Shown here in pieces: positions 8,151 through 64,000 of a DNA stretch of 64,000 bases. The translations under genes were made by a program, and so were the position numbers. The notes under the pieces were generated by a model that was not told the origin of the DNA, did not search any database, and saw nothing but the letters and a program-made list of their open reading frames with translations. The stretch's first letter is position 1. Each line of letters starts with the position of its first letter. Source of the DNA: Loxodes magnus (lineage: Eukaryota > Ciliophora > Karyorelictea > Loxodida > Loxodidae); contig CAMPDV010000213.1 in assembly GCA_946699065.1 (NCBI GenBank), positions 1 through 64,000 of the forward strand, read 5' to 3'.

Positions 8151-8950
8151 TTAGCATACTTACTTTAAGAATCTTGCATAGGGTTTATTATACTATCATT
8201 TAAGCTTATTTTACCTAAGAACTTAAATCTAAGCAAATATAAGTTACACTGCTTATCTTACTATCAAAATACTCTATATAATCATATCAAACTTTAGCAT
8301 AACTAACTATAGCTATATGCTTATTATATCAAAAAGCAAGAGAACCAACATTAATACAGTATTAGCTTACTAAAACTCAAATAGTACCTATTATTTTTAT
8401 GCTAAGAAATAAAAGAAATTGTCTATTCTTTAAATGCAAGAGATTGGTATTATTTCAATAAGAGTGAAATTACTAAGAATTTTTCATCTTTAATAATCTT
8501 AAACTAAAATACTAGTTATTATCATTCTTTCCTATTAGTTATAATGATAAAGCCATTTAAGTATTATGGATATAGTACCAGTTCTCAATAGCTATTTACT
8601 ATACTTTTTATCTATGTGCAAAATATTAAAAATGTAATTTTCTAATTCCCAATTTAAAGAGCATCAAGAATTGTAAGATGCTTGATACTCTTTAGCGTCA
8701 GTCTACTCCTTCCTATACATAGTAATATCTATAACTCTAAATATTAATTTTAAAGTAATCTTTCTTCTAAGCTATCTGTTTCTATATTAGTTATTAGATG
8801 TTACTCCTTTGCTATTAGCAGATTATATATCCATCATACTTAACTTTAAAATATTATTATACTTCTATGGTATCTTTAATATCTTAGATATTCCTAATGA
8901 AACTGAGTATATCGCTAGTGTCTCTTTTTGTATTATAAAATTAAAGAATC
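8151..8950. repeat. Older diverged repeat of 51180-51960
   Basis: Direct-orientation similarity to about 51.18-51.96 kb, with many substitutions and small indels, clearly lower by eye than the identity of blocks A and B downstream. No gene identified. Confidence 0.6.
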
Positions 8951-11900
8951 AATTAGTTTCTACCTAATATAAGCTAAATGATTTGCTTATTGATAAAGAA
9001 TCATATTTTTTAAATATCTAATCTAAAGAATGACAAAGCAAGACTTTGAATTATCTGATTATATCTAATAACTTAGAGAAGCCTCTAGCTGGATTCAAGT
9101 TCTAAAAGGAAAATTTTCAAATAATTATTCTATTTAGGTAGGTTTTTGAAGTATATGAATATCCAGCAAGTATTGATAACATAGTAATCTCTGTTTGAAG
9201 AAGAAAATCGGCAAATCATCCTACCTCTATACAATAAGACACCGTTCTGAATTTATATAAAGTGAGAACTTAGTTGTTTTAAACCATTCAAATTAATTTT
9301 TGAAATATCTATTTATTAGAACACAAGGATTAAATACAAAACTAAGGTTAACACCTTAGCGTAATGATCAAGATGTTTTGTGAAAGTTTAGATTTATTTG
9401 AGTTTTTCTTCAGAAAGTAAATTTTTATAGTTTATTGACACTATCAATTCCTGTTTTAGTCGCTTTACTTAGACAAAATAGTATTTATAGCTTCAATTAT
9501 CTAATATATTTAAGATTCACAAATATTTAATCTTAGATAGAGATTTATCATTCACTTTAATATAGAGATATCTTTAAAGATATTAATTTTGTTACTTTTT
9601 ATTGTATTGTAGTATTAATTTGAATTATCAGAAACTCTTCAATTACCTTTATTTTATATCCTTAAACATTAAAATTGTAATGTTACTTATATCTGACTAG
9701 AGTAAGTATTATATAATAAAATTGAAATTTAAGCGAAAATTGATTTTATTCTTATCCTAAACCTTTGAATTCTCTATTTTTCACCCTTTTCTTTCTATCT
9801 TTTGTTAATATTGATGATGAAATTGAAAGAGCTAGTTTTTAATTATCTAACCTTATAGTTATTTGTATTTATAATTTAATTGGCTAATTATATGACTTAA
9901 GAGGTACTATCATAATTAAGATCTGCTACTTTTAAAAACTTACTTTTACTATTTATTGAATTGCAAAATTTAAAAGAAGGAATTAAAGAGAAACCTAGGA
10001 ATTCAATCAAATTAGACTTTTAGCTTTTTACGAGTGACAAAGGTTGAAGGCTCATTTAATAGAGAAGGACGTACATAAGATGATTATATTTAACCATTTG
10101 AAGAATGAGAAGAAATTAGTGATGATAGGTAAATAAAAGATACAATTAAAAGGAATAAAAGTAGGAAATATTAAAGTTTAAGTTATAGAAGAGAAATAGT
10201 AAGATATAGCTCTAGAAAGCGTCTAGATTAGAAGATTGTTTGATATATAAAGAATATTAATATATCAAGATGGTACTTATTAGAAAAGTATCAGATCGTA
10301 TAAGAGGTTATAACTAGACTGAGTTCTAATAAATCGAAAGATTACCTTAATTCTAAGCGCTATTTAAGTTAAACAAACTGTCAATAGAACTATCCTTTTT
10401 AAAGTATTGGAAAATTTACTACATAAGCTTAATAGTTAAAGGTTAAAAAATATTATCAATAATAGAAGAGCTATAAATAGCAAAGACTGGATCAAGCTCG
10501 AGCAATCAGCATTTCCTGCAATCATTATAATAGCTCTAAGATATTTAACTTTGTAAGCACTAATGATATCCTAAACTTCCTCTGTACTATAATTTGGCAC
10601 TTAAATATTGTAAATATAATAGAAGGATATAAAATAAACTGAAGCCAATTAATTATCTATGAAGTTTGTAAGAAAATACTACGTTAAGTTGCAAAAAAAT
10701 ATTAAAATTTTTATTTGTAAAGTAACTACAAAAGAAACATACAATGAGGCATTAATGTAAGATTCGGATTAAAGATATTAAAGTCGAAGACTAAATCAAA
10801 ATAGCATGTTATGATTAATTAAGAGATGAAGCTATTTGGAATCTGCAAATTATTTTTGAAAAGGAAAAAGTGAAACAAAAAGGAAAAAGTGAAACAAAAA
10901 GGAAAATACTCAATAGTCTTTATTAAGAAGAAAGAGAAAAATAAAACAGAACTTTAAATTTCAACCACTCCTGATTATAAACTTTCAGAAATCTGAATCT
11001 ACAGCTTGGATTGTAGTGATATTAAGAGTTATTATTAAAAAAATAGTAAAAAGAAAAGAGACAACTTAGATGTCAGAATAACTTGATTTTCAATTATTAA
11101 GAATTGATAAATATCTAATACGAAAGCAAAGCTACAAAGCTGAAGAAATATACAAAAACTCATTTAAATAATGATAATGAATTTTCAAATTAAGATTTAT
11201 AAACAGGAGATCATTAGTGAAATAAAAAACAAATCTTAAATTTCTAAACAATTAATTAATCATTTGAGTATAAACCTTAGTTTTAGTTAAATAGATAAAA
11301 TATTCTAATTTTAATGAATATCGTAAATAAGTAATCTTGCATCTTACATAATAGAAGATACTTTCTTAGTTCAATTTTAAATAGATCTTAAAAAAATATT
11401 TTGAGATAGTTGTTAAATTAGTAAGCTATGAACTGAATTAACTACTAGATTTATTATTTTTAAGTTACTTCTTCCTTTTAAAAGTAAAATGGAAGAATTT
11501 TCCCTATCTTTTATAGAATTACGTCTTAATTGTTTTTCTTTCTTTCTATTTTTGCTTTAGTTCAGCTGGATAAGCATTTTATCCTTTTCTCTTAATACTA
11601 TACTTTGATTAGCTCTTGTATAGATCTTAGGTTAATTATTTAAGGAACGGAAACCAGATAGTCTAGTCTTAGGTTTTTCTCATCTTCACATATTCTTTCA
11701 GGTCCCAATGCTTGTAATTTAGTAATTAGGGCTATGAATTTTATTTAACTAACTACAGGATACCTCTCTAAAATACTGTTTCTAGCTTTTTATAATGATA
11801 TGGTATAGAAAAATTTAACTGAATACAACCTTCTGTTTTTTTAGATTTTCGATAACTAAGCATTTCTGCTTTTACTCTGATTAAATGCAAAGTATTAAAA

Positions 11901-12891
11901 TATCAGCTTGTTATTTTAGTTATTTCTTTTCTAATTATTACATGCTTTCCATCAGTTAATTGAACTTGCCTTTAGTTGAATTATTCCTCCTAAAAATCCT
12001 TTTACTTTCTTACTTTTTCTTTATTTTGCTAGATATTCTCCTTCATCTTAGACATGAAATAGTTGAAAAATTAATCAATAGGAATTATTCTTGGCTAATT
12101 TAGTTCCAATTAATATAGTTTAATACTGATTTTATCTAACTTCTGTTAAAAAATAGTATAATGCTTAATATATTTTATTTATCTTACAGAAAGGCTAAGC
12201 TTTTGAGATTAGATTAAGTAAGTAATATAGTTTAAATTTTATATAATTAGTTAGGTAAAAAGAATTAATCTTAAGATCATCAAAGTACTTGCTTTTGAAG
12301 ATACTTCTTTCATTTAAATAAAATCTCTATGTGTTAAATTACTCCATTAAATCTTTACTTTTATCCTTAGTTTATTTAGAAATATTAATAATTGTTTATT
12401 ATTTAATTCAGCTTTACTTTCTCTTCTGCATTAATTAAAATTATAATTCATAATCTATTTTATCTTTTTATCTAAAAATAACAAATTTGCTAAATGTGTT
12501 TACTATAAGTTGAAAAAGCTTTTCATTAAATCAATTTTATATGAGTTTGGTTAGATACCTATTTATATCTATATTTAGTTTATATGATGTTTACTTAATA
12601 AAATTAGAATAATATAGTTATTACTAATTTTAAAACCATCAAATGTTTCTTTTCTGTTTGATCTTTTTATTAGTTAAATCTATTTCTAAGTATTTAGTTT
12701 TATAAGTAATTTATTCTTTTAGAGATTATTTTCTTCCATTTTATGTAATAATTTTAAAAGTAGCTAATTCTTCTATTTAATTTAATAACTATTTTCATTC
12801 AATTAGTTTAGTTTAATTTAATTTCTTAAGTAATTTCTATCCAATCAAATATTAAGTAGCATTTTTATTTTTTACTCAATAAAAAATTAAA
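8951..12891 (+). pseudogene. Decayed coding DNA upstream of the TRIM-like gene (block A)
   Basis: Protein-like stretches under the ciliate code occur on the plus strand. Near 9.03 kb there is TKQDFELSDYIQQLREASSW, and near 10.26-10.65 kb NINISRWYLLEKYQIVQEV followed by a Gln/Lys-rich tail to a TGA. Comparing the latter with block B, I count more amino-acid-changing than silent differences plus a frameshift in B, so it is not under visible constraint. No domain recognised. The 11.4-12.9 kb part is AT-rich, without a coding stretch I can support, and probably holds the promoter of the TRIM-like gene just before its ATG. Confidence 0.35.
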
Positions 12892-15200
12892 ATGTCAGCG
12901 GCCAAGTGTGAATTATGTGAAGAAGATTTCAACTAAGAGCTTAAAAAGCCTAGGTAATTGGACTGTGGATGTATTCTCTGTGAGAAATGCTTGAAAGGCA
13001 TTTATAGGCTACAATAAAAGTTTATATGCAACAAGCATAACATCATCACAACTAGACCAATCGAGTAACTACAAATCCCAGATCTAGTAAGGCAATAGGC
13101 ATAGAACCTTATCAATCCTTAGGACATCTGCCTTATTCATAGATAGTATTCCTTAACTCTATATTGCGTATAGGACAGCATAAGAATATATGTACAATGT
13201 TAGTAGACATCGCATTAAGGACATAGATGTATCGTTACGTAGGATGCAATCTAGCATTTAAAGAGTTACTTGGAATCCACTTTTAGTGCTATCAAGTAGA
13301 GACTGGTTTAATATATATCTACATTGTATTAATGGTATAGTCAGTTAAGTTAATTGTAGATATCCAGAATGGCTAATATGGTTTAGGTATAGCAATCGAT
13401 CAAGTAGAGTATCAAGTAGGCATGTTAGAAGATGGTGAATGATTAATAATACTAAATAAAGAAGTAAATTTAGTTCATTAAAGAAACATCTGATTACTAT
13501 CAGGTGATAGGAAGTTAGGTCGAAGCTATCTCAAATAGTTCTTAGGATAATATCAATCAATGTGAGAATAAAAGGAACTAGTTGAATCAATTTGAGTTAG
13601 CGATCTAGGATAGGTTATAGAGTATCACCTAATCATCCTCTGTTGTATGTCGCGAGAATTTAAGCTTATAGGCTCTCTAGAATTTTATCGTTTCTTATCT
13701 AATGCAGTAGCTTTAGCCTAACCAAGTATACTAGAGTTACATGGCCTAAGCAAGCTAGATCAAGCAACTATAGCTAGCCATAAAGCGTTTATACTAAGAC
13801 TTTCAATAACGGTTCCTCTAGTAAGAAAACAAAGAATAAGACTTTCAACTCTAGTTAAGCAATAAGGACTAATAACTTCAGGCCAAGTAGCTCTAATATG
13901 CTTAAGACATCTAAGAGCTTCGACAATAAAATGCTTAACTTCAATAAGATTTAGCTCTTAATTAGTCTACTATCACTTAATTATAAGACTAGTTACATAA
14001 ATTAGCATAAGAGAATATCAATTACAAAGAGTAGACTAATATCTTACTGAAGGAGTAGGAGAGTATGAAATCTGCATTTAGTTAATTGGAAGCAGATAAT
14101 AAAAATATCAATGACTAGCTTAGATAAAAAGAATAGTAATTAAAAGATTTGCCATATTCTTTGGAATAGTTAAAGTCTTAAGCTAAATAAATTCAAGTCA
14201 GTGAATGGAGTGAGTTGGTGAAGGAGTCTATCTATAAGTATCTAATACTTAAGAGAGTGAATAATTTCTCCACCAAGGATAGCAGTATATAGGAGAGTAT
14301 TATATGGTACCAATAAGATATAATCTTACAAGTTGGACAGTATCAATGGCTCCTGTGTTTACAATGTGGTAGCATCAATGACTCCAATCACTCAAAAATT
14401 GATCCTCGACATATTAGATCTCTGATGAGTTACTAATCTAGGTAGGTGGTTACGATACTAAATCACATCTGGATAAGATCTTATAAATAACTATTGGTAG
14501 TGATTCAGAGATAAAAGCCTAAGCTTCTTTGATCTAGCCAAGAGCAATTTCTTAAATGGGATATGACAATGACAGATTGTTGTATATATTAGGAGGGGTG
14601 GATCCTTAATCTTATTCTGCATCATCTCATGATTATTATAATTACTACAATTCATTGGAGGTGTACGACATGGTTTTGAATAAATCTGTGTCATTGTTGA
14701 GTAATAAGGATTGTATCCACCTTAATGGAATATGGGTATCACATGAGAGAGTATGGATAGTGGGTGGTCGAATATAAAGTTCAGATTTATCTAATAATTT
14801 CCGTAGATCAAGTTTGGTATCATCATATGACGTGATATTGAGTGTGTATTAGTAGTATGGGATGGAGTTACCTAAGCCGGCATTTGGTTTGGCAAGTGTG
14901 TGAGTGAATGAGACTGAGTGTGCTTATATTTGGGACATGAATAATCATCTTTAGTAAACTTGTGTGTTTGACACTAGGTCCATGATAAGGGATGGTAGTT
15001 AATATCCTCATAATACAGTAGCTGGTTTCTGATACAATGGTCAATAAGTGAATAATGTCATATGGATGTGGAGTAGTGATTCTTACATATAGTCAAATGT
15101 GATATATTATTACGACATAAAAGGAGGTAGTTTTTTTAAGTCTAGAGAGTGGAAATCTATGCAATTGAGTGGGTGGGTTTTCTTACTTAATGAGGACAGT
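12892..15200 (+). pseudogene. TRIM-like RING/B-box/coiled-coil/kelch gene, frameshifted copy
   Basis: Same gene as 56484-58493. The N-terminus (MSAAKCELCEEDF, then LDCGCILCEKC and CNKH) and the B-box are intact, as is the long Gln-rich coiled coil. Two one-base insertions relative to block B, near 14.26 kb and 14.38 kb, lie in the hinge between coiled coil and kelch domain and break the frame. The kelch part then continues open in a third frame (YILGGVDPQ, VWIVGG) to a TGA at 14901 and, beyond it, to about 15.2 kb with another in-frame TGA, both TGAs shared with B. Product if translated: coiled-coil protein truncated before the kelch domain. Confidence 0.75.
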
Positions 15201-15545
15201 TATAAGTAATTATATTATAAGTTATTAAGTTATTAAGTTTATTATATTATTAAGTTATTACGTTATTAAGTATATTAAAGTATATTTAAAGTATATTAAA
15301 AGTATTAAAAGTATATTTAAAGTGAATTAAATTATATTTAAGTATATAAAGTATATTAAAGTATGATTAAAGTATTATAAGTATATTAGAGTATTTAAAG
15401 TATATTTAAGTATATAAAGTATTATAAGTATATAAGTATATTAGAGTATATAAAGTATATTAGAGTATTATAAAGTATATAATATAAATTATGTATATAA
15501 ATAGAATATGCTTAGAGTATGTATAGAATATGTATAGAGTATGTA
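15201..15545. repeat. AGTATATTAA-type AT tandem repeat (block A)
   Basis: Irregular tandem array of units such as AAGTATATTA and AAGTATATTTA, directly after the TRIM-like gene. The counterpart in block B (58780-59270) is longer. Confidence 0.8.
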
Positions 15546-15626
15546 TAGAGTATGTATAGAATATGTGTATGGAATATGAATAGAGTATGTGAAGAGTGTA
15601 TGAGGATGTTAGAGTTAAATGAAGTA

Positions 15627-16306
<680 letters not shown>

Positions 16307-16574
16307 AAAAAAAAAAGTAAGAAAAGCAAAAAAATGCAAAAAGAAAAAAAAGTAAAAAAAATTTTTTTTTGTAAGAGAAAAAATGTAAGTAAGAAAGGGA
16401 AAAAATTTTGAAGTAAAAAAGAAAAGAAAAAATAGAAAGGGAAAAAAATTGGAAGAAGGGAGAAGGAGTGTAAAATATATGAAGAAAGAAAGAGTGAGTG
16501 AAGTTAAAGGGAGTAGAAGTATAAAAAGGGTGCAATTAAGTGTGTAGAAGTGGTTGAAATTCATGAAAAATGGA

Positions 16575-16623
16575 AAAGTCTTTTTTTGCTCAGCGTTTTA
16601 CACTACAAGAGATTTTTTTTGAT
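16575..16623 (+). promoter_or_regulatory. Conserved 50-bp block before the 20-bp tandem repeats
   Basis: GTCTTTTTTTGCTCAGCGTT followed by TTACACTACAAGAG and a T-run. The same block occurs at 60062-60116 and again at 60488-60533. It lies at the head of the ORF1 unit, so a role as the element's 5' end or promoter is inferred. A weaker echo (TTTACACTATAGAAG) is at about 17.05 kb. Confidence 0.4.
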
Positions 16624-16722
16624 GGACTAAAAATTTTGGAACGGACTAAAAAATTTTGGGTTGGACTAAAAAACTTTGGAACGGACTAAAAAATTTTGGA
16701 ACGGACTAAAAAATTTTGAAAA
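16624..16722 (+). repeat. Five tandem 19-20 bp units upstream of ORF1
   Basis: Units starting at 16624, 16643, 16663, 16683 and 16703 follow GGACTAAAAAATTTTGGAAC with small changes. Block B has six units. Tandem 5' monomers are known in some LINE promoters, and 19-bp tandem repeats are known in the long inverted repeats of Tetrahymena Tlr elements; which applies here is not decided. Confidence 0.75.
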
Positions 16723-17155
16723 ATTAAGTAAAAGGGGTAAAACGTAAATATATTAAATAAAAAAATAAAAGAATCATGAATGATGAAAAAAATAATTTAG
16801 AAAATAGAATAAAGTAAGTTCCGATATAATAAAAATATTAAAATATTTATAAATTTAATTATTTAGACTTATCGATAAGAAAAACTAAGTTAAAGAAGAA
16901 TTATCTTATAAAACATTTATAGAAGTATAAATAATTTGAATATAAGAATAGATAATGATGAAAAGAGATAACTAACTAAATAAGTAAAAGAAACCAAAAA
17001 AAGAAATATAATTAAGAGAGAAAGGAAAAGTGTAGAGTTATTTTTGGAGATTTACACTATAGAAGAATTTTAAAAATGGACTAATCTTGGATGTTTTGGT
17101 TTTTACTTGATTAAAAAATAATAATAAATTATTATATAATATAATTTAATATAAA

Positions 17156-17880
17156 ATGGCATCTAAGAAATAATAGAATTCTCCAACAAAATCTAATAAT
17201 TAACCAGACTTTGCTAACTATTTCTATTGTTACAATTGGATAATTAGAAGCTTGCAAAAGAAGTTTAAGACTTTAAATTAATAATTTAATCTCTCATGTT
17301 AGCCATTAACTAATTGGTAAATTAATAGGACTCTAAGCAAGAAATTAAATAATAGACTATTTCCTTAGAAATAGATAGAAAGATAAATTGGTCAAATCGA
17401 ATGAAATTTAAGATAAAATTTTTCCCAGAGGATCAGTTAACTGGAGCATATCAAGCTCAGTTAACTATCAAATTCAGAATCATAAGGAGAAGAATCTGAA
17501 TTAAAACTTATTCTATTAGAAAAGAAAAATTAAATGTTGATATTGCTATAAGTATGGACACAAGTTTAATTAGTGTTAACGATTTAAGAAGAAACAATCT
17601 TAAGTAACTGAAAGAGAAATCTAAAATTTATTCATAATCTTATGTTTCCAAACAGAAGACTTTCAAGAAAAAATATTTTAACCACTCTTAGAAACTCCAA
17701 AAATCTAAAATACATTGAGAGATACAATATGGATTCTACTTACAAGAATTAGCAAGAGGAGAAAATAAAAATGTTATAAGAATTTACGATTAAAAAAATC
17801 AAGTATAATACGATCTCGAGACCTATTAATTACTACAAAACTCTATAAACTCTAATTTATGGTAAGCTAAATAAAAGTGA
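17156..17880 (+). pseudogene. LINE ORF1 (zinc knuckle), copy c in block A
   Basis: ATG 17156 gives MASKKQQNSPTKSNN, like the start of the next copy (MVPKKQQTSPTKP) and of the 37.9 kb copy (MAPKKQSTK). A CCHC knuckle lies at 17535-17576 in another frame: C-TGA-YC-YKYG-H-KFNQ-C, with TGA at the aromatic position usually held by Phe, Tyr or Trp. The end, IRIYDQKNQVQYDLETYQLL then NSNLWQAKQK-TGA (17880), is in a third frame. Total length is not a multiple of three, and the block B copy carries the same breaks, so they predate the duplication. Confidence 0.65.
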
Positions 17881-18408
17881 TGCCACATTAATATATTATT
17901 ATATTAATTTAAAATAAAAAAGGAACATAAAAATTTGAAAGACAAGAAGTAAACGTAAATTAAAGTGTAATGTGAAAAGAATAATAGGATTTTTAAGGAG
18001 TTTAAGAGTAAAAGAGAATAAGAGAAATGTAAGAAGACAAGAAGTAATTTAAAATAAAAAAAAATTGCAAAGACAAAAGTATTTAACATTAGCTAAATAA
18101 AAAATTAAATTAAAAATAAAAAAAATTAATCATTAAAATGATATCTTTATGAAAGAGAAGCGATGAAAAGAAGCTGAAAAAAAAATCTTTTAACTCCTCA
18201 ATTTAAAAAATAAAAAATAAAAAAGATAATAAGATAGATTGAAACATCATAAAATGGATTTTAAATAAATAGAAGAGATAATTTAAATAAATTATATAGA
18301 ATATATAAAGAAAAATAAAAGGATGCGCTTCATCTGCATAGAGCATATCAGCTGTACTGCTTGTATACTATTTAAAAACATTTCTTAGATATATTATATA
18401 AAAATAAA
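17881..18408. other. Spacer between the two ORF1 copies (block A)
   Basis: AT-rich and purine-rich on the plus strand. Contains the moderately GC-richer stretch GGATGCGCTTCATCTGCATA (18321-18340), kept unchanged in block B. The reverse-strand frame at 17904-18089 is an unsupported short frame. Confidence 0.4.
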
Positions 18409-19139
18409 ATGGTACCTAAGAAATAACAGACTTCACCAACAAAACCTTATAAAACTTAGTAGGATGTAGTCAATGATCTCTGCTATCTTTAGATAGAGAA
18501 TTAAGAAATAACAAAAGTAATTAAAGATCTTTATAAACTAACTAATGAATTGTAAAATCCTATAGAAATTGTAAAATAGGAAAATTCAACACTACGATAG
18601 GAATTGCTCTAAACCCGCACTTGCAACAAATTTAAGGTGGAATTTTACAGACAGAACAAATAGCAATAGAAATTTAAAATTTGAAAATACTAAACCAGAA
18701 AAAACTTAAAGAAAGTGATTCATTGGAAATAGAATAACAAACTGCAACAAAATATATTCCCTATCGGAAAATAATGATATGTTGACATTGCAAGCTTTCA
18801 TTATATAAAGTAAGAAATTGCTACCAATTTTAATAAAAATAAAAGAGATTAATATAAATCAAATGGTAAGATATGCTTAAAATAAGCAAGACAAGTGAAT
18901 GTTTGCTTAATCTGAAAAAAACTCAAACTAAGCAAAAAAGCTCATTATATCTAAAAGACAGTAAACTATTTCAATGAAAATGATAGCGATTAGGCCTATC
19001 GAAAAAAATAATGGAAACAAATCTTAAAAATATCAAGAAACATGATAATGAAGATGAAGATACAGGCAAATTTAAAGTGATTAATTATTTTTAAACAATA
19101 AATTAACAAACTAATAAGTGGTAAACCAAATAAAGGTGA
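18409..19139 (+). pseudogene. LINE ORF1 (zinc knuckle), copy d in block A
   Basis: ATG 18409: MVPKKQQTSPTKP, then a Gln/Glu-rich, probably helical stretch. The CCHC knuckle at 18780-18821 reads C-TGA-HC-KLSL-Y-KVRN-C: the His codon CAT has become TAT, and TGA sits at the aromatic site. NENDSDQAYRKK near 18.97 kb and the terminus TNKWQTKQR-TGA (19139) follow. A TGA after about 85 codons and frameshifts inactivate it. Two adjacent ORF1 genes of one family, both broken, head to tail. Confidence 0.65.
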
Positions 19140-20160
19140 GACCAGAAATAATAGTGTTATGCTATAATAATATATTAGAATAAAGAAATATCATAAGTTT
19201 TATTTTGATCAAATGAAGATTTATAACATTTATATCTAAGACTAGAACAATCTAATTAAATATGAAAGTATTATTACAAAAGAATTTAGAAAATAACTGA
19301 AAATTTTAACAAATAATTAAGTTAATTAAAGTAACAAGAGGTAAATTCATACAAAAGGAAATCATACAAACGAAGTATCTAATTGATAATAATATTTTAT
19401 ATATCATATATGAAATCTACAAAGAAATTTAAACTGGTAAGTAGCACTTGCGTTAAAAACACAAGAAAATAATTAATTCTCAGCTTAAGAAACATAATTA
19501 AACATTTTCTATAATCTCTATACTCTTACTACTTTTCTCAATTTTTTCTTTTATATCTTCTTTTCATATTTATTTTTTCTTAAAATAAATCTTAATTTGA
19601 AAAGCAAACCTAAATATTTAAAAAATACTATAATCTAGTTATCTGAAGTCACGAAAATTAACCTTTTTAATCTCCTTTTATTTAAAAAAAATTTGTATTC
19701 TTTATAAAATCTAGTATGTTATAGCTTTACCTTGTCTCGTTGTTGATATTCCTTTCTTTTCTAAATTTTTAAAATAAGAAATAATTACCTTATTAAGAAA
19801 ATTTCTGTTGATTCAATATGAAAAAAGATGTAAAGAAGAGTTAAGAGGAAAAACCAATAATATTGAAAAATACAACATTCGAAAAAAAAATTTTAAATCT
19901 TTTTTTTATCTTAGTAAATAGTAAGGAATTTTCATTAAAAATATGATGTACGAATTTAATGAAAAAATACTTTGAGAGATGTTAGTAACAAATTATAAGT
20001 AAAATTCGTGTAACATCAGATAAAAAAGTCAAAAAAGCAAGGCGAAACAAAAGTGAAACTTCTAAATTGATCCGAAATGGATTTAAAAACAAAAAACTGT
20101 AATGAAGAAAACATCACAAATTAAGGAAAAATGACTAGAGAAAAACATCACCTTAAAAAA
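19140..20160. other. 3' flank of the ORF1 pair, still within block A
   Basis: AT-rich, repeated nearly unchanged at 63034-64000. No reading frame recognised. Confidence 0.4.
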
Positions 20161-51960: not shown

Positions 51961-52574
51961 AATTATATAACTTAGTTGTTTTAATAAAGTAGATAAGAGA
52001 ATTTAAAAATAGAAATAAGAAAATTAGAGATTAGAGTAATTAGCATAAAAATTAAAGCTTAAACTTAATTTTTATCTACATTGCTTATATAAGTATTTTA
52101 CAGAAACTTACTAAAATTTACTGAAAAGAAAGACTTAGATAATTTAACTTTAGTGTTAGTGTGAGTTTTCTGCAAGAATGTGTAATTAAAAATATACCTA
52201 AAGAATTTCATATTGTTCGCTAACACTTTGTAAGAAGTATTCTTATTTAATTGTTAATCAAAATAAATTATTTAATTAGCTTGCTTTCTTTTTAAAATAA
52301 AATTAGAACATTATTTTTTAATTAAATATTGATAAATGAAATTTTCTTATTAAGTATCTTTAGAAGCATCTTCTATTTAAATATTAAGATTTTATAAACC
52401 TTCTACTCATAAGACTTCACAGAAATTTACTATTATAGTCTTTTTTAAAAAATTTAATTTTTTTCTTTGTCTTAGTTTTAGAGAATGAGTAAGGTAAGCT
52501 CTATCAGAACAATAAAGTTTAACTTTTATGGATGTTACTATTATCTCTTTGTATTTATTTAACTAATGTATCAC
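51961..52574. other. About 600 bases present only in the second copy
   Basis: AT-rich and without counterpart between 8930 and 8960. An insertion here or a deletion at 8.95 kb; no termini or genes recognised. Confidence 0.4.
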
Positions 52575-55500
52575 TTAGTTTCTACCTTATATAAGTTAAA
52601 TGATTTGCTTATTGATAAAGAATCATATTTTTAAAATATCTAATCTAAAGAATGACAAAAGCAAGACTTTTAATTATCTGACTTTATCTATTAACTTAGA
52701 GAAGCCTTTAGGTGTATTCAAGTTCTAAAGGAAAGTTTTCAAATAATTATTCTATTTAGGTAGGTTTTTGAAGTATTTGACTATCAAGCAAACATTCATA
52801 ACATATAGTAATCCATGTTTGAAGAAGAAGATCGGCAAATTATCTTATCTCTATACATTAAGACATCGTTCTGAGTTTTTTAGAACACTCCAATTTAATC
52901 TTTAGAAATATCTTTTTATTAGAATACAAGGACTGAATACAGGACTAAGTGTTAACACTTTAGTGTAATAATCAAACTGTTTTATGAAAGTTTAGATTTT
53001 TTGAGTTTTTCTTCAGAAAGTAAATTTTTATAGTTTATTGACACTATCAATTCCTTTTTTTGTCTCTTTACTTAGATAAAATAGTATTAATAGCTTCAAT
53101 TATCTAATTAAGTTAAGATTTACAAATATTTAATCTTAGATAGAGATTTATAATTCAATTTGATATAGAGATATCCTTAAAGATATTTATTTTGTTACTT
53201 TTTATTGTGTTATTAATTTGAATTATCAGAAACTCTTCAATTACCTTTATTTTATATCCTTAAACATTAAAATTGTAATGTTACTTATATCTGACTAGAG
53301 TAAGTATTAGTTATGATACAGTTGAAGTTTAAGCGAAAAATGATTTTATTCTTATCCTAAACCTTTGAATTCTCTATTTGATACCCTTTTCTTTCTATCT
53401 TTTGCTGATATTGATGATGAAATTGAAAGAGCTAGTTTTTAATTATCTAACCTTATAGTTTATTTGTATTTATAATTTAATTGGCTAATTATATGACTTA
53501 AGAGGTACTATCATAATTAAGATCTGCTACTTTTAAAAACTTACTTTTACTATTTATTGAATTGCAAAACTTAAAAGAAGGAATTTAAAAGAGAAACCTA
53601 GGAATTCAATCAAATTAGACTTTTAGCTTTTTACGAGCGACAAAGGTTGAATGCTCATTTATAATAGAGAAGGACGTACACAAGTTGACTATTAACAATT
53701 TGAAGAATGAGAAGAAATTAGTGATGATAGGTAAATAAAAGATACAATTAAAAAGGAATAAAAGTAGGAAAATATTAAAGTTTAAGTTTATAGAAGAGAA
53801 ATTGTGGGATATAACTCTAGAAAGCGTCTAGATTAGAAGATTGTTTGATATATAAAGAATATTAATATATCAAGATGGTACTTATTAGAAAAGTATCAGA
53901 TCGTATAAGAGGTTATAGCTAGACTGAGTTTTAATAAATTGAAAGATTACCTTAATTCTAAGCGCTATTTAAGTTAAGCAAACTGTCAATAGAACTATCC
54001 TTTTTAAAGCATTGGAAAATTCACTACATAAGCTTAATAGTTAAAGGTTAAAAAATATTATCAATAATAGAAGAGCAATAAATAGCTAAGACTGGATCAA
54101 GCTCGAGCAATCAGCATTTTCTGCAATCATTATAATAACTCTAAGAATATTTACCTTTGTAAGCACTAATGATGTCCTAAACTTCTTCTGTACTATAATT
54201 TGGTACTTAAATATTGTAAGTATAATAGAAGGATATAAAGTAAACTGAAGTTAGTTATTTTCTATGAAGTTTTGTAAGAAAATACTACGTTAAGTTGTAA
54301 AAAAAAATTAAAATTTTTATTTGTAAAGTAACTACAAAAGAAACATACAATGAGGCATTAATGTAAGATTCGGATTAAAGATATTAAAGTCGAAGACTAA
54401 ATCAAAATAGCATGTTATGATTAATTAAGAGATGAAGCTATTTGGAATCTGTAAGTTATTTGGAATATGTTAGTTACTGTGAAGCAAATAGGAAAATATT
54501 CAATAGTCTTTATTAAGAAGAAAGAGAAAAATAAAACAGAACTTTAAATTTCAACGCCTCCAGATTATAAACTTTCAGAGAATTTAATCTACAGCTTGGA
54601 TTGTAGTGATATTAAGAGTTGTTATTAAAAAAATAGTAAAAAGGAAAAGAGACAACTTAGATGTCAGAATAACTTGATTTTCAATTATTAAGAATTGATA
54701 AATATCTAATACGAAAGCAAAGCTACAAAGCTGAAGAAATATACAAAACTCATTTAAATAATGATAATGAATTTTCAAATTAAGATTTATAAACAGGAGA
54801 TCATTAGTGAAATAAAAAACAAATCTTAAATTTCTAAACAATTAATTAATCATTTGAGTATAAACCTTAGTTTTAGTTAAATAGATAAAATATTTTAATA
54901 TTAATGAATATCGTAAATAAGTAATCTTGCATCTTACATAATAGAAGATACTTTCTTAGTTCAATTTTAAATAGATCTTAAAAAAATATTTTGAGATAGT
55001 TGTTAAATTAGTAAGCTATGAACTGAATTAACTACTAGATTTATTATTTTTAAGTTACTTCTTCCTTTTAAAAGTAAAATGGAAGAATTTTCCCTATCTT
55101 TTATAGAATTACGTCTTAATTGTTTTTCTTTCTTTCTATTTTTGCTTTAGCTCAGCTGGATAAGCATTTTCTCCTTTTCTCTTAATACTATACTTTGATT
55201 AGTTCTTGTATAGATCTTAGGTTAATTATTTAAGGAACAGAAACCAGATAGTCTAGTCTTAAGTTTTTCTCATCTTCACATATTCTTTCAGGTCCCAATG
55301 CTTGTAATTTAGTAATTAGGGCTATGAATTTTATTTAACTAACTTCAGGATACCTTTCTAAATACTGCTACTAGCTTTTTATAACGATATGGCATAAAAA
55401 ATTTTTCAGCTGAATATAGTCTTCTATTTTTTAAGATTTTCGATAACTAAGCATTTCTGCTTTTACTCTGATTAAATGCAAAGTATTAAAATATAAGCTT

Positions 55501-56483
55501 GTTATTTTAGTTATTTCTTTTCTAATTATTACATGCTTTCCATCAGTTAATTGAACTTGCCTTTAGTTGAATTATTCCTCCTAAAAATCCTTTTACTTTC
55601 TTATTTTTCTTTATTTTGCTAGATATTCTCCTTCATCTTAGACATGAAATAGTTGAAAAATTAATTAATAGGAATTATTCTTGGCTAATTTAGTTCCAAT
55701 TAATATAGTTTAATACTGATTTTATCTAGCTCCTGCTAAAAAGTTTTATAATGTCTAATATATTTTATTTATCTTACAGAAAGGCTAAGTACTTTAGAAG
55801 AGATTAAGTAATTAATATAGTTTAAATTTTATATAATTAGTTAGGTAAAAAGAATTAATCTTAAGATCATCAAAGTACTTGTTTTTAGAACATAATTCTC
55901 CCATTTAAATAAAATCTCTATGTGTTCAATTACTCCATTAAATCTTTACTTTTATCCTTAGTTTATGTAGAAATATTAATAATTGTTTATTATTTAATTC
56001 AGCTTTACTATCTCTTCTGCTTTAATTAAAATTATAATTCATAATCTATTTTATCTTTTTATCTAAAAATAACAAATTTGCTAAATGTGTTTACTACAAT
56101 TTGAAAAAGCTTTTCATTAAATAAATTTTATATAAGTTTGGTTAGATACCTATTTATATCTATATTTAGTTTATATGATGTTTACTTAATAAAATTATAA
56201 TAATATAGTTATTACTAATTTTAAAACCATCTAATGTTTCTTTTCTGTTTGTTCTTTTTATTAGTTAAATCTATTTCTAAGTATTTAGTTTTATAAGTAA
56301 TTTATTCCTTTTAGAGGTTATTTTCTTCCATTTTATGTAATAATTTTAAAAGTAGTTAATTCTTCTATTTAATTTAATAACTATTTTCATTCAATTAGTT
56401 TAATTTAAATTATTTTCTTAAGTAATTTCAATCCAATCAAATATTAAGTAGCATTTTTATTTTTTACTCAATAAAAAATTAAA
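52575..56483 (+). pseudogene. Decayed coding DNA upstream of the TRIM-like gene (block B)
   Basis: Counterpart of 8951-12891. The protein-like stretch at about 53.85-54.26 kb has amino-acid changes and a frameshift relative to block A, so both copies have drifted. The 84-codon reverse-strand frame at 54584-54841 is not convincing. Confidence 0.35.
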
Positions 56484-58493
56484 ATGTCAGCGGCCAAGTG
56501 TGAAGCATGTGAAGAAAATTTCAACTAAGAGCTTAGAAAGCCTAGGTAGTTGGACTGCGGATGTATTCTATGTGAGAAATGCATAAAAACTGTATACAAC
56601 CTCTATTAGAAATTTACTTGCAACAAGCATAACATCATTACGTAAAGACCAATTGAGTCATTACCAATTATGAACTTAGTAAGGCAATAGGCATAGAACC
56701 TTATCAATCCTTAGGACATCTGCCCTATTCATAGATAGTATTCCTTAACCCTGTATTGCGTATAGGACAGCATAAGAATCTGTGTACAATGTTAGTAGAC
56801 ATCGCATTAAGGACATAGATGTATCGCTACGTAGGATGCAATCTAGCATTTAAAGAGTTACTTGGAATCCACTTTTAGGGCTATCAAGTAGAGACTGGTC
56901 TAATACATATCTACATTGTATTAATGGTATAGTCAGATAAGTTAATTGTAGATATCCAGAATGGCTAATATGGTTTAGGTATAGCAATCGATCAAGTAGA
57001 GTATCAAGTAAGCCTGTTAGAAGATGGTGAATAATTAATAATACTAAATAAAGAAGTAAATGTAGTTACTTAAAGAAGCATCTGATTACTATCAGGTGAT
57101 AGGAAGTTAGGTCGAAGCTATCTCAAATAGTTCCTAGGATAATATCAATCAATGTGAGAATAAAAGGAACTAGTTGAATCAATTTGAGTTAACAATCTAG
57201 GAAAGGTTCTAGAGTATCTCCTAATCATCCTCTGTTGTATGTCGCGAGAATTTAAGTCAATAGGCTCTCTAGAATTTTATCATTTCTTATCTAATGCAGT
57301 AGCTTTAGCCTAACCAAGTTTACTAGAGTTACATGGCCTAAGCAAGCTAGATCAAGCAACTATAGTTAGCCATAAAGCGTTTATACTAAGACTTTCAATA
57401 ACGGTTCCTCTACTAAGAAAACAAAGAATAAGACTTTCAACTCTAGTTAAGCAATAAGGACTAATAACTTCAGGCCAAGTAGCTCTAGTATGCTTAAGAC
57501 ATCTAAGAGCTTCGACAATAAAATGCTTATCTTCAATAGGAATTAGCTCTTAATAAGTCTGCTATCACTTAATTATAAGACTAGTTACATAAATTAGCAT
57601 AAGAGAATCTCAGATACAAAGAGTAGATGAGAATCTTATTGAAGGAGTAGGAGAGTATAAAATCTGCATTTAGTTAGTTGGAAGCCGATAATAAAAATAT
57701 CAATGACTAGCTTAGATAAAAAGAATAGTAATTAAAAGATTTGCCATATTCTTTGGAATAGTTAAAGTCTTAAGCTAGATAAATTCAAGTCAGTGAATGG
57801 AGTGAGTTGGTGAAGGATTCTATCTATAAGTATCTAATACTTAAGAGAGTGAATAATTCTCCACCAAGGATAGCAGTATATAGGAGAGTATTCTATGGTA
57901 CCAATAAGATCTAATCTTTTTAGTTGGACGGTATCAATGGCTCCTGTGTTTACAATGTGGTAGCATCAATGACTCCAATATATACTAATGCCTCATCGAC
58001 ACATTAGATCTCTGATGAGTTACTAATCTAGGTGGGTGGTAACTCAACTAAATCACATCTGGATAAGATCTTATAAATAACTATTGGTAGTGATTCAGTG
58101 ATAAAAGCCTCAGCTTCTTTGATCTAGCCAAGAAGTATAACTTAAATGGGATATGACAATGACAGATTGTTGTATATATTAGGAGGGTTGGATCCATAAT
58201 CAAAGTCTGCATCATCTCATCCTTATTATAATTACTACAATTCATTGGAGGTGTACGACATAGTTTTGAATAAGTCTGTGTCATTGTTGAGTAATAAGGA
58301 TTGTATCCACCGTAATGGAATATGGGTATCATATGAGAGAGTGTGGATAGTGGGTGGTCATATATAAAGTTCAGATTTATCTAATAATTTCCACTGATCA
58401 AGTTTGGTATCATCATATGACGTGATGTTGAGTGTGTATTAGTAGTATGGGATGTAGTTACCTAAGCCGGCATCTGGATTGGCAAGTGTGTGA
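56484..58493 (+). CDS. TRIM-like protein: RING, B-box, coiled coil, kelch (669 residues)
   Basis: ATG 56484 opens a frame of 669 codons, with about 80 TAA/TAG read as Gln, ending at TGA 58491-58493. Residues 6-49 form a RING-like zinc site: C6, C9, C25, C27, C30, C33, C46, H49; the usual His after DCG is Cys. Residues 80-111 are a B-box 2: C80-x2-H83, C92, D95, C100-x2-C103, H108-x2-H111. A Gln-rich coiled coil spans about 115-430. Kelch repeats follow from about 495 (LLYILGGLDPQ, NSLEVYD, ERVWIVGG, SLVSSYD). TRIM-type proteins are usually E3 ubiquitin ligases that bind substrate through the C-terminal beta-propeller; a role here is inferred. Kelch-like sequence continues past the stop to about 58777. 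Confidence 0.85.
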
Positions 58494-58779
58494 GTGAATG
58501 AGACTGAGTGTGCTTATATTTGGGACATGAATAATCATCTTTAGTAAACTTGTGTGTTTGACACTAGGTCCATGATAAGGGATGGTAGTTAATATCCTTA
58601 CGATACAGCATCTAATTTCTGATACAATGGTCAATAAGTGAATAATGTCATATGGATGTGGAGTAGTGAATACCAAACATAGGCAAATGTGATATATTAT
58701 TACGACATAAAAGGAGGTAGTTTTTTTAAGTCTAGAGAGTGGAAATCTATGCAATTGGATGTGAATTGAATCTCTTAAC
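58494..58779 (+). pseudogene. Kelch-like sequence downstream of the TGA
   Basis: In frame with the TRIM-like gene: VNETECAYIWDMNNHLQQ, CVFDTRSMIRDG, then TGA, YNGQQVNNVIWMW and VIYYYDIKGGSFFKSREWK, ending at another TGA. It looks like one or two further kelch blades. Block A has the same extension with the same two TGAs. Either the true protein was longer and Trp codons TGG became TGA, or the stops are read through. Confidence 0.6.
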
Positions 58780-59270
58780 GAGGACAATTATTAAGTTATT
58801 AAGTTATTAAGTTATTATATTATTAAGTATATTAGAGTATATAAAGTATGATTAAAGTATGATTAAAGTATATTAAAGTATATTAAAGTATATTTAAAGT
58901 ATATTAAAAGTATTAAAAGTATATTTAAAGTGAATTAAAGTATATTTAAGTATATTAAAGTATATTAAAGTATATTAGAGTATGATTAAAGTATATTAGA
59001 GTATATTAAAGTATATTTAAGTATATTAAAGTATGATTAAAGTATTATAAGTATATTAGAGTATTTAAAGTATATTTAAGTATATTAAAGTATTATAAGT
59101 ATTATAAGTATATTAGAGTATATAAAGTATATTAGAGTATTATAAAGTATATAATATAAATTATGTATATAAATAGAATATAAATAGAGTATTATAAAGT
59201 ATATAATATAAATTATGTATATAAATAGAATATACTTAGAGTAGATATAGAGTATGTATAGAATATATGT
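58780..59270. repeat. AGTATATTAA-type AT tandem repeat (block B)
   Basis: Same repeat as 15201-15545 but longer, with a duplicated TATAAAGTATATAATATAAA section near 59.14 and 59.20 kb. Confidence 0.8.
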
Positions 59271-59354
59271 ATGGAATATGAATAGAGTATGTGAAAGTGT
59301 ATGAGGATGTTAGAGTTAAATGAAGTAAGAAATATAAAAGAGTAAAGAGTGGTG

Positions 59355-59830
59355 GGAAGTAAAAAAAAGAAAAGAAAGGAAAGAAAGAAAGAAAAGAAAG
59401 AAAGAAAAGAACAAAAAAAAAGAAAATTAAGAAAATTAAGAAAGAAAGAAAAGTAAGAAAGAAAAAAAGAACAAAAGAACAATAAAAATAAGAAAAGAAA
59501 GAAAAAAAGAAAATTAAGAAAATTAAGAAAGAAAGAAAAAAAAGAAAGAAAGAAAGAAAAAAAAGAAAGAAAGAAAGAAAAAAGAAAATTAAGAAAGAAA
59601 GAAAGGAAAGAAAGGAAAGTAAGAAAAAAAAAAGTAAGAAAAAAAGTAAGAAAAAAAGAAAGAAAAGAGCGAAAAGAAAAGAAAGAAAAAAAAAAAAATT
59701 AAGAAAGAAAGGAAAGAAAGGAAAGAAAGAAAGAAAAAAAGAAAAGAAATAAAAAAAGAAAAGAAAGAAAAAAAGAAAGCAAATTAAGAAAAAAAAGTAA
59801 GAAAGAAAAAAAAAAAGTAAGAAAAGCAAA
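59355..59830. repeat. Degenerate GAAA/polypurine tract (block B)
   Basis: Polypurine with GAAA, AAAAGAAAG and AAATTAAG interruptions, in the place of the nearly pure GAAA array of block A. The long Phe/Leu/Ser reverse-strand frames here are repeat artefacts. Confidence 0.9.
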
Positions 59831-60061
59831 AAAGGGAAAAAAAAATTTTTTTAAGAGAAAAAATGTAAGTAAGAAAGGGAAAAAATTTTAAAGTAAAAAA
59901 GAAAAGAAAAAATAGAAAGGGAAAAAAATTGGAAGAAGGGAAAGGAGTGTAAAATAAATGAGTGTGTAGAAAGAGATAGTGGAATTAAAGGAAGTAGATT
60001 AGAAGTATAAAGAGGTGTAAGGAAGTGTAAAGAAGTGGTTGAAAATCATGAAAAATAAAAA

Positions 60062-60116
60062 AGTCTTTTTTTGCTCAGCGTTTTACACTACAAGAGATTT
60101 TTTTTGATGGACTAGA
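60062..60116 (+). promoter_or_regulatory. First copy of the conserved 50-bp block (block B)
   Basis: CTTTTTTTGCTCAGCGTTTT, then ACACTACAAGAG and a T-run, as at 16575. It is followed here by unrelated G-rich sequence instead of 20-bp units. Confidence 0.4.
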
Positions 60117-60487
60117 GGAGGGTTAAAGTGGATAAGGTGTGGGATGGAATGAATTATGGGTAAAAAAAAATAATTGTATAGGATATTTTTTGAAAAAAGG
60201 TGAAAAATTTTAGAAAGGGACAAAAATTTGTTGGTTAAATGAAAATAGAGTTAGGAATAAAAAATTTTGAAATGTATTTTCCTAAAAAGTTTTGTGAATG
60301 AGCGAGAATAAAAATTTTTGAGTGAAAGGAATCGAAAATTTTTTGATTTTTGAAAATGAGTAAAAAGTAATTTGGTGATAAGAGAAGGTGAAAGGAAAGA
60401 TTAATGGAGTGTTTTTGGGATGAATCGTATGTTAGAGGGGAATTTTTTTAGAAAATGAGGAGTGTTATAAAGGGAAAAATGGTGAAA
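60117..60487. other. Extra segment between two conserved blocks, block B only
   Basis: Purine-rich, with repeated AAAATTTT cores (AAAAATTTTAGAAAGGGAC, AAAAATTTTTGAGTG) that look like scrambled or diverged relatives of the 20-bp unit. Absent from block A. Confidence 0.4.
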
Positions 60488-60533
60488 GCCTTTTTTTGCT
60501 CAGCGTTTTACACTGCAAGAGATTTTTTTTGAT
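60488..60533 (+). promoter_or_regulatory. Second copy of the conserved 50-bp block (block B)
   Basis: Same block as at 60062, with CACTGCAAG instead of CACTACAAG, directly before the 20-bp tandem units. Confidence 0.4.
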
Positions 60534-60652
60534 GGACTAAAAATTTTGGAATCGACTAAAAAATTTTGGAACGGACAAAAAATTTTGGGTTGGACTAAAA
60601 AATTTTGGAACGGACTAAAAAATTTTGGAATGGTCTAAAAAATTTTGAAAAA
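60534..60652 (+). repeat. Six tandem 19-20 bp units upstream of ORF1 (block B)
   Basis: Units start near 60534, 60553, 60572, 60592, 60612 and 60632. One more unit than in block A, with single-base variants (TCGACTAAA, GGACAAAA, TGGTCTAAA). Confidence 0.75.
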
Positions 60653-61083
60653 TTAAGTAAAAGGGGTAAAACGTAAATATATTAAATAAAAAAATAAAAG
60701 AATCATGAATGATAAAAAAATAATTTAGAAAATAGAATAAAGTAAGTTCCGATATAATAAAAATATTAAAATATTTATAAATTTAATTATTTAGACTTAT
60801 CGATAAGAAAAACTAAGTTAAAGAAGAATTATCTTATAAACTATTTATAGAAGTATAAATAATTTGAATATAAGGATAGATAATGATGAAAAGAGATAAC
60901 TAACTAAATAAGTAAAAGAAACCAAAAAAAGAAATATAATTAAGAGAGAAAGGAAAAGTGTAGAGTTATTTTTGGAGATTTACACTATAGAAGAATTTTA
61001 AAAATGGACTAATCTTGGATGTTTTGGTTTTTACTTGATTAAAAAATAATAATAAATTATTATATAATATAATTTAATATAAA

Positions 61084-61808
61084 ATGGCATCTAAGAAATA
61101 ATAGAATTCTCCAACAAAATCTAAAAATTAACCAGACTTTGCTAACTATTTCTATTGTTACAATTGGATAATTAGAAGCTAGCAAAAGAAGTTTAAGACT
61201 TTAAATTAATAATTTAATCTCTCATGTTAGCCATTAACTAATTGGTAAATTAATAGGACTCTAAGCAAGAAATTAAATAATAGACTATTTCCTTAGAAAT
61301 AGATAGAAAGATAAATTGGTCAAATCGAATGAAATTTAAGATAAAATTTTTCCCAGAGGATCAGTTAACTGGAGCATATCAAGCTCAGTTAACTATCAAA
61401 TTCAGAATCATAAGGAGAAGAATCTGAATTAAAACTTATTCTATTAGAAAAGAAAAATTAAATGTTGATATTGCTATAAGTATGGACACAAGTTTAATTA
61501 GTGTTAACGATTTAAGAAGAAGCAATCTTAAGTAACTGAAAGAGAAATCTAAAATTTATTCATAATCTTATGCTTCCAAACAGAAGACTTTCAAGAAAAA
61601 ATATTTTAACCATTCTTAGAAACTTCAAAAATCTAAAAGGCATTGAGAGATACAATCTGGATTTGACTTACAAGAATTAGCAAGAGGAGAAAATAAAAAT
61701 GTTATAAGAATTTACGATTAAAAAAATCAAGTATAATACGATCTCGAGACCTATTAATTACTACAAAACTCTATAAACTCTAATTTATGGTAAGCTAAAT
61801 AAAGGTGA
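61084..61808 (+). pseudogene. LINE ORF1, copy c in block B
   Basis: Nearly identical to 17156-17880 and of the same length (725 bases, not a multiple of three), with the same frame breaks and the same TGA in the zinc knuckle. Ends NSNLWQAKQR-TGA. Confidence 0.65.
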
Positions 61809-62329
61809 TGCCACATTAATATATAATTATATTAATTTAAAATAAAAAAGGAACATAAAAATTTGAAAGACAAGAAGTAAACGTAAATTAAAGTGTAATG
61901 TGAAAAGAATAATAGGATTTTTAAGGAGTTTAAGAGTAAAAGAGAATAAGAGAAATGTAAGAAGACAAGAAGTAATTTAAAATAAAAAAAATTGCTAAGA
62001 CAAAAGTATTTAACATTAGCTAAATAAAAAATTAAATAAAAAATAAAAAAAAAATTAATCATTAAAAGATATCTTTATGAAAGAGAAGCGATGAAAAGAA
62101 GCTGAAAAAAAAATCTTTTAACTCTTCAATTTAAAAAATAAAAAAGATAATAAGATAGATTGAAACATCATAAAATGGATTTTAAATAAATAGAAGAGAT
62201 AATTTAAATAAATTATATAGAATATATAAAGAAAAATAAAAGGATGCGCTTCATCTGCATAGAGCATATCAGCTGTACTGCTTGTATACTATTTAAAAAC
62301 ATTTCTTAGATATATTATATAAAAATAAA
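61809..62329. other. Spacer between the two ORF1 copies (block B)
   Basis: Counterpart of 17881-18408; no gene recognised. The 76-codon reverse-strand frame is unsupported. Confidence 0.4.
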
Positions 62330-63033
62330 ATGGTACCTAAGAAATAACAGACTTCACCAACAAAACCTTATAAAACTTAGTAGGATGTAGTCAATGATCT
62401 CTGCTATCTTTAGATAGAGAATTAAGAAATAACAAAAGTAATTAAAGATCTTTATAAACTAACTAATGAATTGTAAAATAGAAAATTCAACACTACGATA
62501 GGAATTGCTCTAAACCCGCACTTGCAACAAATTTAAGGTGGAATTTTACAGACAGAACAAATAGCAATAGAAATTTAAAATTTGAAAATACTAAACCAGA
62601 AAAACTTAAAGAAAGTGATTCATTGGAAATAGAATAACAAACTGCAACAAAATATATTCCCTATCGGAAAATAATGATATGTTGACATTGCAAACTTTCA
62701 TTATATAAAGTAAGAAATTGCTACCAATTTTAATAAAAATAAAAGAGATTAATATAAATCAAATGGTAAGATATGCTTAAAATAAGCAAGACAAGTGAAT
62801 GTTTGCTTAATCTGTAAAAAACTCCAACTAAGCCGAAAAGCTCCTTATATCTAAAAGGAAGTAAACTATTTCAATGAAAATGATAGCGATTAGGCCTATC
62901 GAAAAAAATAATGGAAAAAAATCTTAAAAATATCAAGAAACATGATAATGAAGATACAGGCAAATTTAAAGTGATAAATTATTTTTAAATAATAAATTAA
63001 CAAATTAATAAGTGGTAAACCAAATAAAGGTGA
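62330..63033 (+). pseudogene. LINE ORF1, copy d in block B
   Basis: Counterpart of 18409-19139. About 20 bases between two TTGTAAAAT repeats and 6 bases of a GATGAA repeat are missing, giving a shorter gene. The zinc knuckle with TAT for His and TGA at the aromatic site is the same. Ends NKWQTKQR-TGA at 63033. Confidence 0.65.
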
Positions 63034-64000
63034 GACCAGAAATAATAGTGTTTTGCTATAATAATATGTTAGAATAAAGAAATATCATAAGTTTGATTTT
63101 GATAAAATGAAGATTTATAGCATTTATATCTAAGACTAGAACAATCTAATTAAATATGAAAGTATTATTACAAAAGAATTTAGAAAATAACTGAAAATTT
63201 TAACAAATAATTAAGTTAATTAAAGTAACAAGAGGTAAATTCATACAAAAGGAAATCATACAAACGAAGTATCTAATTGATAATAATATTTTATATATCA
63301 TATATGAAATCTACAAAGAAATTTAAACTGGTAAGTAGCACTTGCGTTAAAAACACAAGAAAACAATTAATTCTCAGTTTAAGAAACATAATTAAACATT
63401 TTCTATGATCTCTATACTCTTACTACTTTTCTCAATTTTTTCTTTTATATCTTCTTTTTTCTTAAAATAAATCTTAATTTGAAAAAAAAACCTAAATATT
63501 TAAAAAATACTATAATCTAATTAACTGAAGTCACGAAAATTAACCTTTTTAATCTCCTTTTATTTAAAATTTTTTTTATTCTTTATAAAATCTAGTATGT
63601 TCTAGCTTTACCTTGTCTCGTTGTTGATATTTCTTTCTTTATAAATTTTAAAAATAAAAAATAATTACCTTATTAAGAAAATTTCTGTTGATTCAATATG
63701 AAAAAAGATGTAAAGAAGAGTTAAGAGGAAAAACCAATAATATTGAAAAATACAACATTCAAAAAAAAATTTTCAAATCTTTTTTTTATCTTATTAAATA
63801 GTAAGGAATTTTCATTAAAAATATGATGTACGAATTTAATGAAAAAATACTTTGAGAGATGTTAGTAACAAATTATAAGTAAAATTCGTGTAACATCAGA
63901 TAAAAAAGTCAAAAAGCAAGGCGAAACAAAAGTGAAACTTCTAAACTGATCCGAAATGGATTTAAAAAAAACTGTAATGAAGAAAACATCACTAATTAAG
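63034..64000. other. 3' flank of the ORF1 pair (block B), to the window edge
   Basis: Nearly identical to 19140-20125. No gene recognised. Confidence 0.4.

Follow-up and report, generated by a model that had tools for sequence, protein, structure and literature searches.

A TRIM-like gene in two related, probably decaying copies within a segmental duplication of the ciliate Loxodes magnus

Introduction

TRIM E3 ligases work as coiled-coil dimers whose RING recruits E2~ubiquitin, and kelch propellers bind substrate. The usual C-terminal classes of TRIM proteins are NHL, PHD-bromo, SPRY, MATH and the like.

One survey found that RBCC proteins outside animals are confined to a TRIM37-like type marked by a MATH domain (PMC3503706). 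It reports these TRIM37-like “Subfamily A” TRIMs, with MATH as their characteristic domain, from alveolates and other non-animals (PMC3503706). Among ciliate proteins, the accessible text on Tetrahymena Zfr1p describes 448 residues, an N-terminal B-box and expression during conjugation (PMC3519685); the words “coiled” and “TRIM” are absent from the main text of that source as accessible (PMC3519685). The word “kelch” is likewise absent from the main texts of PMC3503706 and PMC3137616 in their accessible form. No ciliate RBCC-kelch family is named in the titles or abstract openings consulted, and one may still be in print.

Domain architecture

The gene described here occurs in a 64-kb stretch of Loxodes magnus DNA (the window), in which only two copies of it, A and B, were seen. 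The features of copy B are as follows.

56484..58394, plus strand: TRIM-like frame of copy B, starting with ATG and open for 637 codons up to a TGA, with TAA/TAG as Gln
56499..56630, plus strand: RING-like finger (C6, C9, C25, C27, C30, C33, C46, H49), sub-threshold match to zf-RING_UBOX
56709..56825, plus strand: B-box 2 zinc finger (C80, H83, C92, D95, C100, C103, H108, H111), matching zf-B_box and PDB TRIM3 8amr
56835..57233, plus strand: first coiled-coil segment, residues 118-250, with heptad periodicity; modelled helix 117-247 (low confidence)
57306..57743, plus strand: second coiled-coil segment, residues 275-420, with heptad periodicity; modelled helix 275-418 (low confidence)
57846..58394, plus strand: first part of a kelch-like propeller, Kelch_1 sub-threshold, repeats LLYILGG...VYD and RVWIVGG...SYD by eye
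58395..58766, plus strand: remaining kelch-like frame, cut by TGA at 58395, 58491 and 58620

Copy B contains a B-box and a coiled coil. The B-box, the only one seen in this copy, matches the Pfam model zf-B_box at E 2.2e-9 and 37.8 bits, above the cut-off of 24.1, and that of copy A scores 24.4-25.1 bits against the same cut-off. A sequence search of the PDB up to E 0.01 returned four matches, all of them TRIM proteins (TRIM3, TIF1-beta/TRIM28, TRIM41 and TRIM72), the best being TRIM3 8amr at E 1.6e-4. The matches span the B-box, and those to TRIM3 and TRIM28 reach into the start of the coiled coil. The observed heptad-like hydrophobic periodicity was reached in 0/500 shuffles for residues 118-250 and again in 0/500 for residues 275-420; it is absent from residues 1-115 (288/500) and 455-637 (185/500).

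On either side of this core the Pfam matches are sub-threshold: zf-RING_UBOX gives E 0.0018 and 18.7 bits against a cut-off of 25.2, and Kelch_1 at the C-terminus gives E 0.089, also below its cut-off. We infer a RING and a kelch propeller from these matches, which fall in the right order. Each copy has a residue of the expected type at all eight RING cross-brace positions, seven of them Cys and one His. The B-box metal positions are kept 8/8 in copy B, with ligand C100 replaced by Tyr in copy A; metal ligands in both fingers were assigned from spacing and the consensus. AlphaFold models are of low confidence, with a mean pLDDT of 29.5 for the kelch-like region and 41.6 for the model with the long helices. 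Pfam gave no MATH domain up to E 1 in copy B, read on to 58766, or in copy A, scanned at 12541-14529 and 12892-14277.

A preliminary description of this DNA had placed RING, B-box 2, coiled coil and kelch parts in one frame and proposed a protein search with the ciliate code. That search bears out a TRIM-like architecture in the frame at 56484, with a B-box above its Pfam cut-off, TRIM proteins as PDB matches and heptad-periodic segments behind the B-box; the RING and kelch profile matches stay below cut-off, and the kelch part is cut by TGA.

Reading frame and genetic code

The frame had also been given as 669 codons with no TGA. Codon 638 of copy B is already TGA (58395-58397) and ends the frame at 637 codons, which rules out an intact 669-codon gene; the end previously assigned is the next in-frame TGA (58491-58493). 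A third TGA lies at 58620, and the homologous frame extends as far as 58766. Of the three, only the one at 58395 is restricted to copy B, copy A having AGA there; 58491 and 58620 are TGA in both copies. Given how often TGA occurs locally, a run of 637 TGA-free codons in one given frame would arise with a probability of about 6e-5; this low chance, together with the domains carried, argues that the copy B frame is, or was, a gene. The frame directly upstream (54858-56483), also TGA-free in copy B, was rejected as coding because copy A has TGAs there, in that frame and 5' of its ATG, and because substitutions between the copies are spread evenly over the three phases (19/22/19).

TAA and TAG are read as sense, probably as glutamine. 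Tyrosine is disfavoured, since with it the B-box of copy B scores 31.3 bits instead of 37.8 and that of copy A 17.4 instead of 25.1; the tyrosine translation gave no PDB match up to E 0.01, and it was the only one with which the kelch model PF24681 turned up (E 0.0028, far below its own cut-off). Glutamate, as in the peritrich code, scores equally with glutamine on domains (B-box 37.7 versus 37.8 bits, PDB matches again TRIM proteins), so that the preference for glutamine comes from charge balance, the net charge of copy B being -66 with Glu and +13 with Gln. Codon exchanges between the copies lend glutamine no support: of the 14 codon differences that involve TAA/TAG, six swap TAA and TAG for each other and a single one pairs with GAG, while CAA/CAG is never the partner. 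Reading TGA as Trp did not improve the Pfam kelch score of copy B, whose first 637 codons hold no TGA and four TGG.

The duplication and copy A

Both gene copies and their flanks were duplicated together (8923-20125 with 52544-64000).

8923..20125, plus strand: segmental duplication unit A, pairing with unit B
52544..64000, plus strand: segmental duplication unit B, running off the window end
12892..14262, plus strand: RING/B-box/coiled-coil (RBCC) part of copy A, 457 codons in register with copy B, free of TGA and indels
14263..15170, plus strand: kelch-like region of copy A, interrupted by in-frame TGAs and by two frameshifts of one base each, near 14265 and near 14389
58788..60647, no strand: satellite-like tandem arrays directly 3' of copy B, with AT-rich, AAAG-type and 20-bp units

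Identity between the units ranges from 0.84 to 1.00 per 250 columns outside satellite arrays and falls to 0.58 inside them. Older stretches of 78-81% identity lie towards the left, and identity is mostly 95-100% at the right. The frame of copy A is itself TGA-free for 546 codons, the final part being out of register with copy B, and as far as the frameshifts go its lesions stand under any genetic code.

AT-rich and AAAG-type satellite arrays adjoin both gene copies (58788-60647 and 15198-16718) and have diverged between the units. About 600 bases at 51948-52543 are present in unit B only. No convincing inverted repeats were seen at the ends of this stretch or of the stretch present in unit A only (about 5506-8145).

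Selection between the copies

Selection was assessed pairwise between copies A and B, over the 457 in-register codons (1371 bp) and over the kelch part and tail. The 1371 bp of the RBCC part are free of indels, whereas the upstream flank has 28 events in 3917 bp and the downstream flank 13 in 3299 bp; the chance of none is 5.5e-5 at the upstream rate or 0.0045 at the downstream rate, and low-complexity sequence contributes to these flank rates. By codon position 3/1/2, substitutions number 48/24/17 over codons 1-457 and 47/24/17 over 56484-57800 (P 2e-4), and pN/pS is 0.35 over codons 1-457. It is 0.43 (Fisher P 0.005) over codons 73-457, with a divergent block and the part preceding it left out. 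Purifying selection thus appears to have acted on the RBCC part during at least some of the period after the copies diverged, which does not say that either copy is active now.

The kelch part and tail show three indel events in 966 bp, substitutions of 27/23/20 by position 3/1/2 (P 0.59) and a pN/pS of 0.76 (Fisher P 0.27). No constraint was detected there between the copies by position bias or pN/pS, in a comparison of low power (about 64 changes in all, and about 22 in the tail). NG86 dN/dS by region, from RING to tail, is 0.22, 0.32, 0.42, 0.60 and 1.29.

The divergent block lies within the RING region.

56583..56676, plus strand: divergent block, 94 bp with 33 differences between the copies, spanning the later half of the RING plus the linker that follows

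Of 41 differences counted over the first 250 bp, it accounts for 33. Codons 33-72 have a pS of 0.634 and a pN of 0.178 (pN/pS 0.28), and codons 73-457 a pS of 0.08 and a pN of 0.03. Since high pS goes with low pN/pS in codons 33-72, gene conversion fits better than positive selection, and the pattern suggests conversion from a more distant, constrained paralogue; no donor was seen.

Surroundings

Further relics were recognised elsewhere in the window.

about 26335-28300, plus strand: LINE-like relic in several frames, Exo_endo_phos_2 at E 7e-4 (below cut-off), RT-like motifs by eye
38596-39052, minus strand: SSU rRNA fragment, eukaryotic model, 149.5 bits, model positions 34-595 of 1831
6187-6288, minus strand: second B-box relic, 24.2 bits against a cut-off of 24.1, and 21.3 bits (below cut-off) within a longer stretch

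Relatives of the LINE-like relic lie at 2129-2272 and 119-253, both on the minus strand. One frame of the LINE-like stretch (25.7-31.0 kb) gave no PDB match up to E 0.1, and the matches there to QueF (E 0.0025), YvbH_ext (0.059) and Ins134_P3_kin_N (0.1), all below cut-off, were taken as chance. The rRNA fragment, partial and diverged, is probably an rDNA relic; in a scan of the whole window at gathering thresholds a shorter match to the microsporidian model was listed in place of the eukaryotic one. The second B-box relic sits in a 2.6-kb stretch missing from unit B and has a relative at 35667-35849 (plus strand) for which Pfam returned no hit. The two relics are related to each other and represent another B-box family, different from the first.

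When 1-9, 36-51 and 49-64 kb were scanned with Pfam in all six frames, the B-box of copy B and the second B-box relic were the sole hits; 9-36 kb was scanned in parts, in single frames and, at 25.7-28.3 and 35.4-36.4 kb, in the three plus frames. The repeat-rich, pseudogene-bearing setting previously noted is supported by the duplication, the satellites and the LINE-like, rDNA and B-box relics. That nearly everything around the frame is broken holds for copy A (12892-15170), the LINE-like relics and the rDNA fragment, but much of the scanned DNA contains no recognisable gene at all.

Origin and fate of the copies

Copies A and B are probably related, decaying members of a host RBCC-kelch gene family spread by segmental duplication, and an ordinary host family, not transposon cargo, is the most likely source. 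Such a family would have multiplied by segmental duplication amid satellites and dead LINE-like elements. Its protein would probably be a TRIM-like, ubiquitin-tagging enzyme: by analogy, in a living member the coiled coil would dimerise, the RING would recruit E2~ubiquitin and the kelch propeller would bind substrate. The two TGAs common to both copies suggest that the propeller was lost before the duplication; the RBCC part would have been selected for at least part of the time after the copies split, and the RING block may have been replaced by gene conversion from a more distant paralogue. Domain order, the all-TRIM PDB matches, the heptads, the joint duplication and the lesions of copy A all point to decay within a host family. 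Against it stand RING and kelch scores below curated cut-offs, the fact that only two copies were seen, and the lack of a homologue at E 1e-3 in a protein database, genome contigs and viral contigs, collections in which prokaryotes and viruses predominate.

Constraint on the RBCC part in both copies also counts against decay, since the copies could be alive and expressing truncated proteins. Copy B might then be a functional truncated gene, an RBCC protein lacking the full propeller and selected, for example, as a dimerising regulator or competitor of full-length members. An open, indel-free RBCC part in both copies, 8/8 RING and 8/8 B-box metal positions in copy B, and a pN/pS of 0.35 over codons 1-457 beside a kelch part of no detected constraint would all suit such a gene; yet in copy A one B-box zinc ligand is gone and the tail is out of frame, copy B has an additional private TGA, and the constraint may predate the death of the copies, which makes this reading rather unlikely. 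Its extension to the family, in which the RBCC module would be kept under selection, the propeller shed and the RING reshuffled by conversion, with truncated members acting as dimerising E3 regulators, we regard as less probable still.

Little probability attaches to a product of about 761 residues, a complete RBCC-kelch protein made by reading TGA as Trp or by removing the TGAs with an intron or an excised germline segment. With TGA as a sense codon, copy B would be open to 58766, and two of its TGAs are indeed common to both copies; however, no convincing intron or TA-bounded segment spans them by eye, kelch scores do not rise when TGA is read as Trp, the first 637 codons use four TGG and no TGA, copy A has AGA in place of the TGA at 58395, and the tail looks unconstrained on about 22 changes, a test of low power. 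Equally improbable is the reading as cargo or accessory gene, which the preliminary description had suggested for a large repeat family and under which a large mobile element would spread the gene through the genome. The repeated block, longer than 11 kb, that holds each of the two copies would be in keeping with it, as would the LINE-like and further B-box relics also present in the window, but the proposal finds no backing in the six frames of 36-51 and 49-64 kb, where Pfam gave no transposition domain (degraded genes could be missed), or around unit A (8400-20700), where no inverted repeat brackets the block among the 25 longest of 74 pairs; unit B leaves the window. The patchy identity, 78-81% on the left and mostly 95-100% on the right, is as in segmental duplication with conversion.

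Comparison with known systems

If a kelch end on an RBCC protein from outside the animals proved true, it would widen the known set of C-terminal partners; as the kelch part is weak and broken here, a living family member is needed first. Like copy B, Zfr1p is a ciliate B-box protein, but it has 448 residues. TRIM37-like Subfamily A proteins share RING (RING-like in copy B) and B-box with copy B outside animals, alveolates included, according to the survey, which also gives the MATH domain as the mark of that subfamily (PMC3503706); this domain was not found in copy B. Relative to TRIMs of the TRIM3 and TRIM28 type, copy B differs in its kelch-like C-terminus, its sub-threshold RING and the single B-box seen in it. 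With these E3 ligases it shares the order of RING (RING-like here), B-box 2 and coiled coil, and its residues 79-188 match solved TRIM3 and 79-191 match TRIM28.
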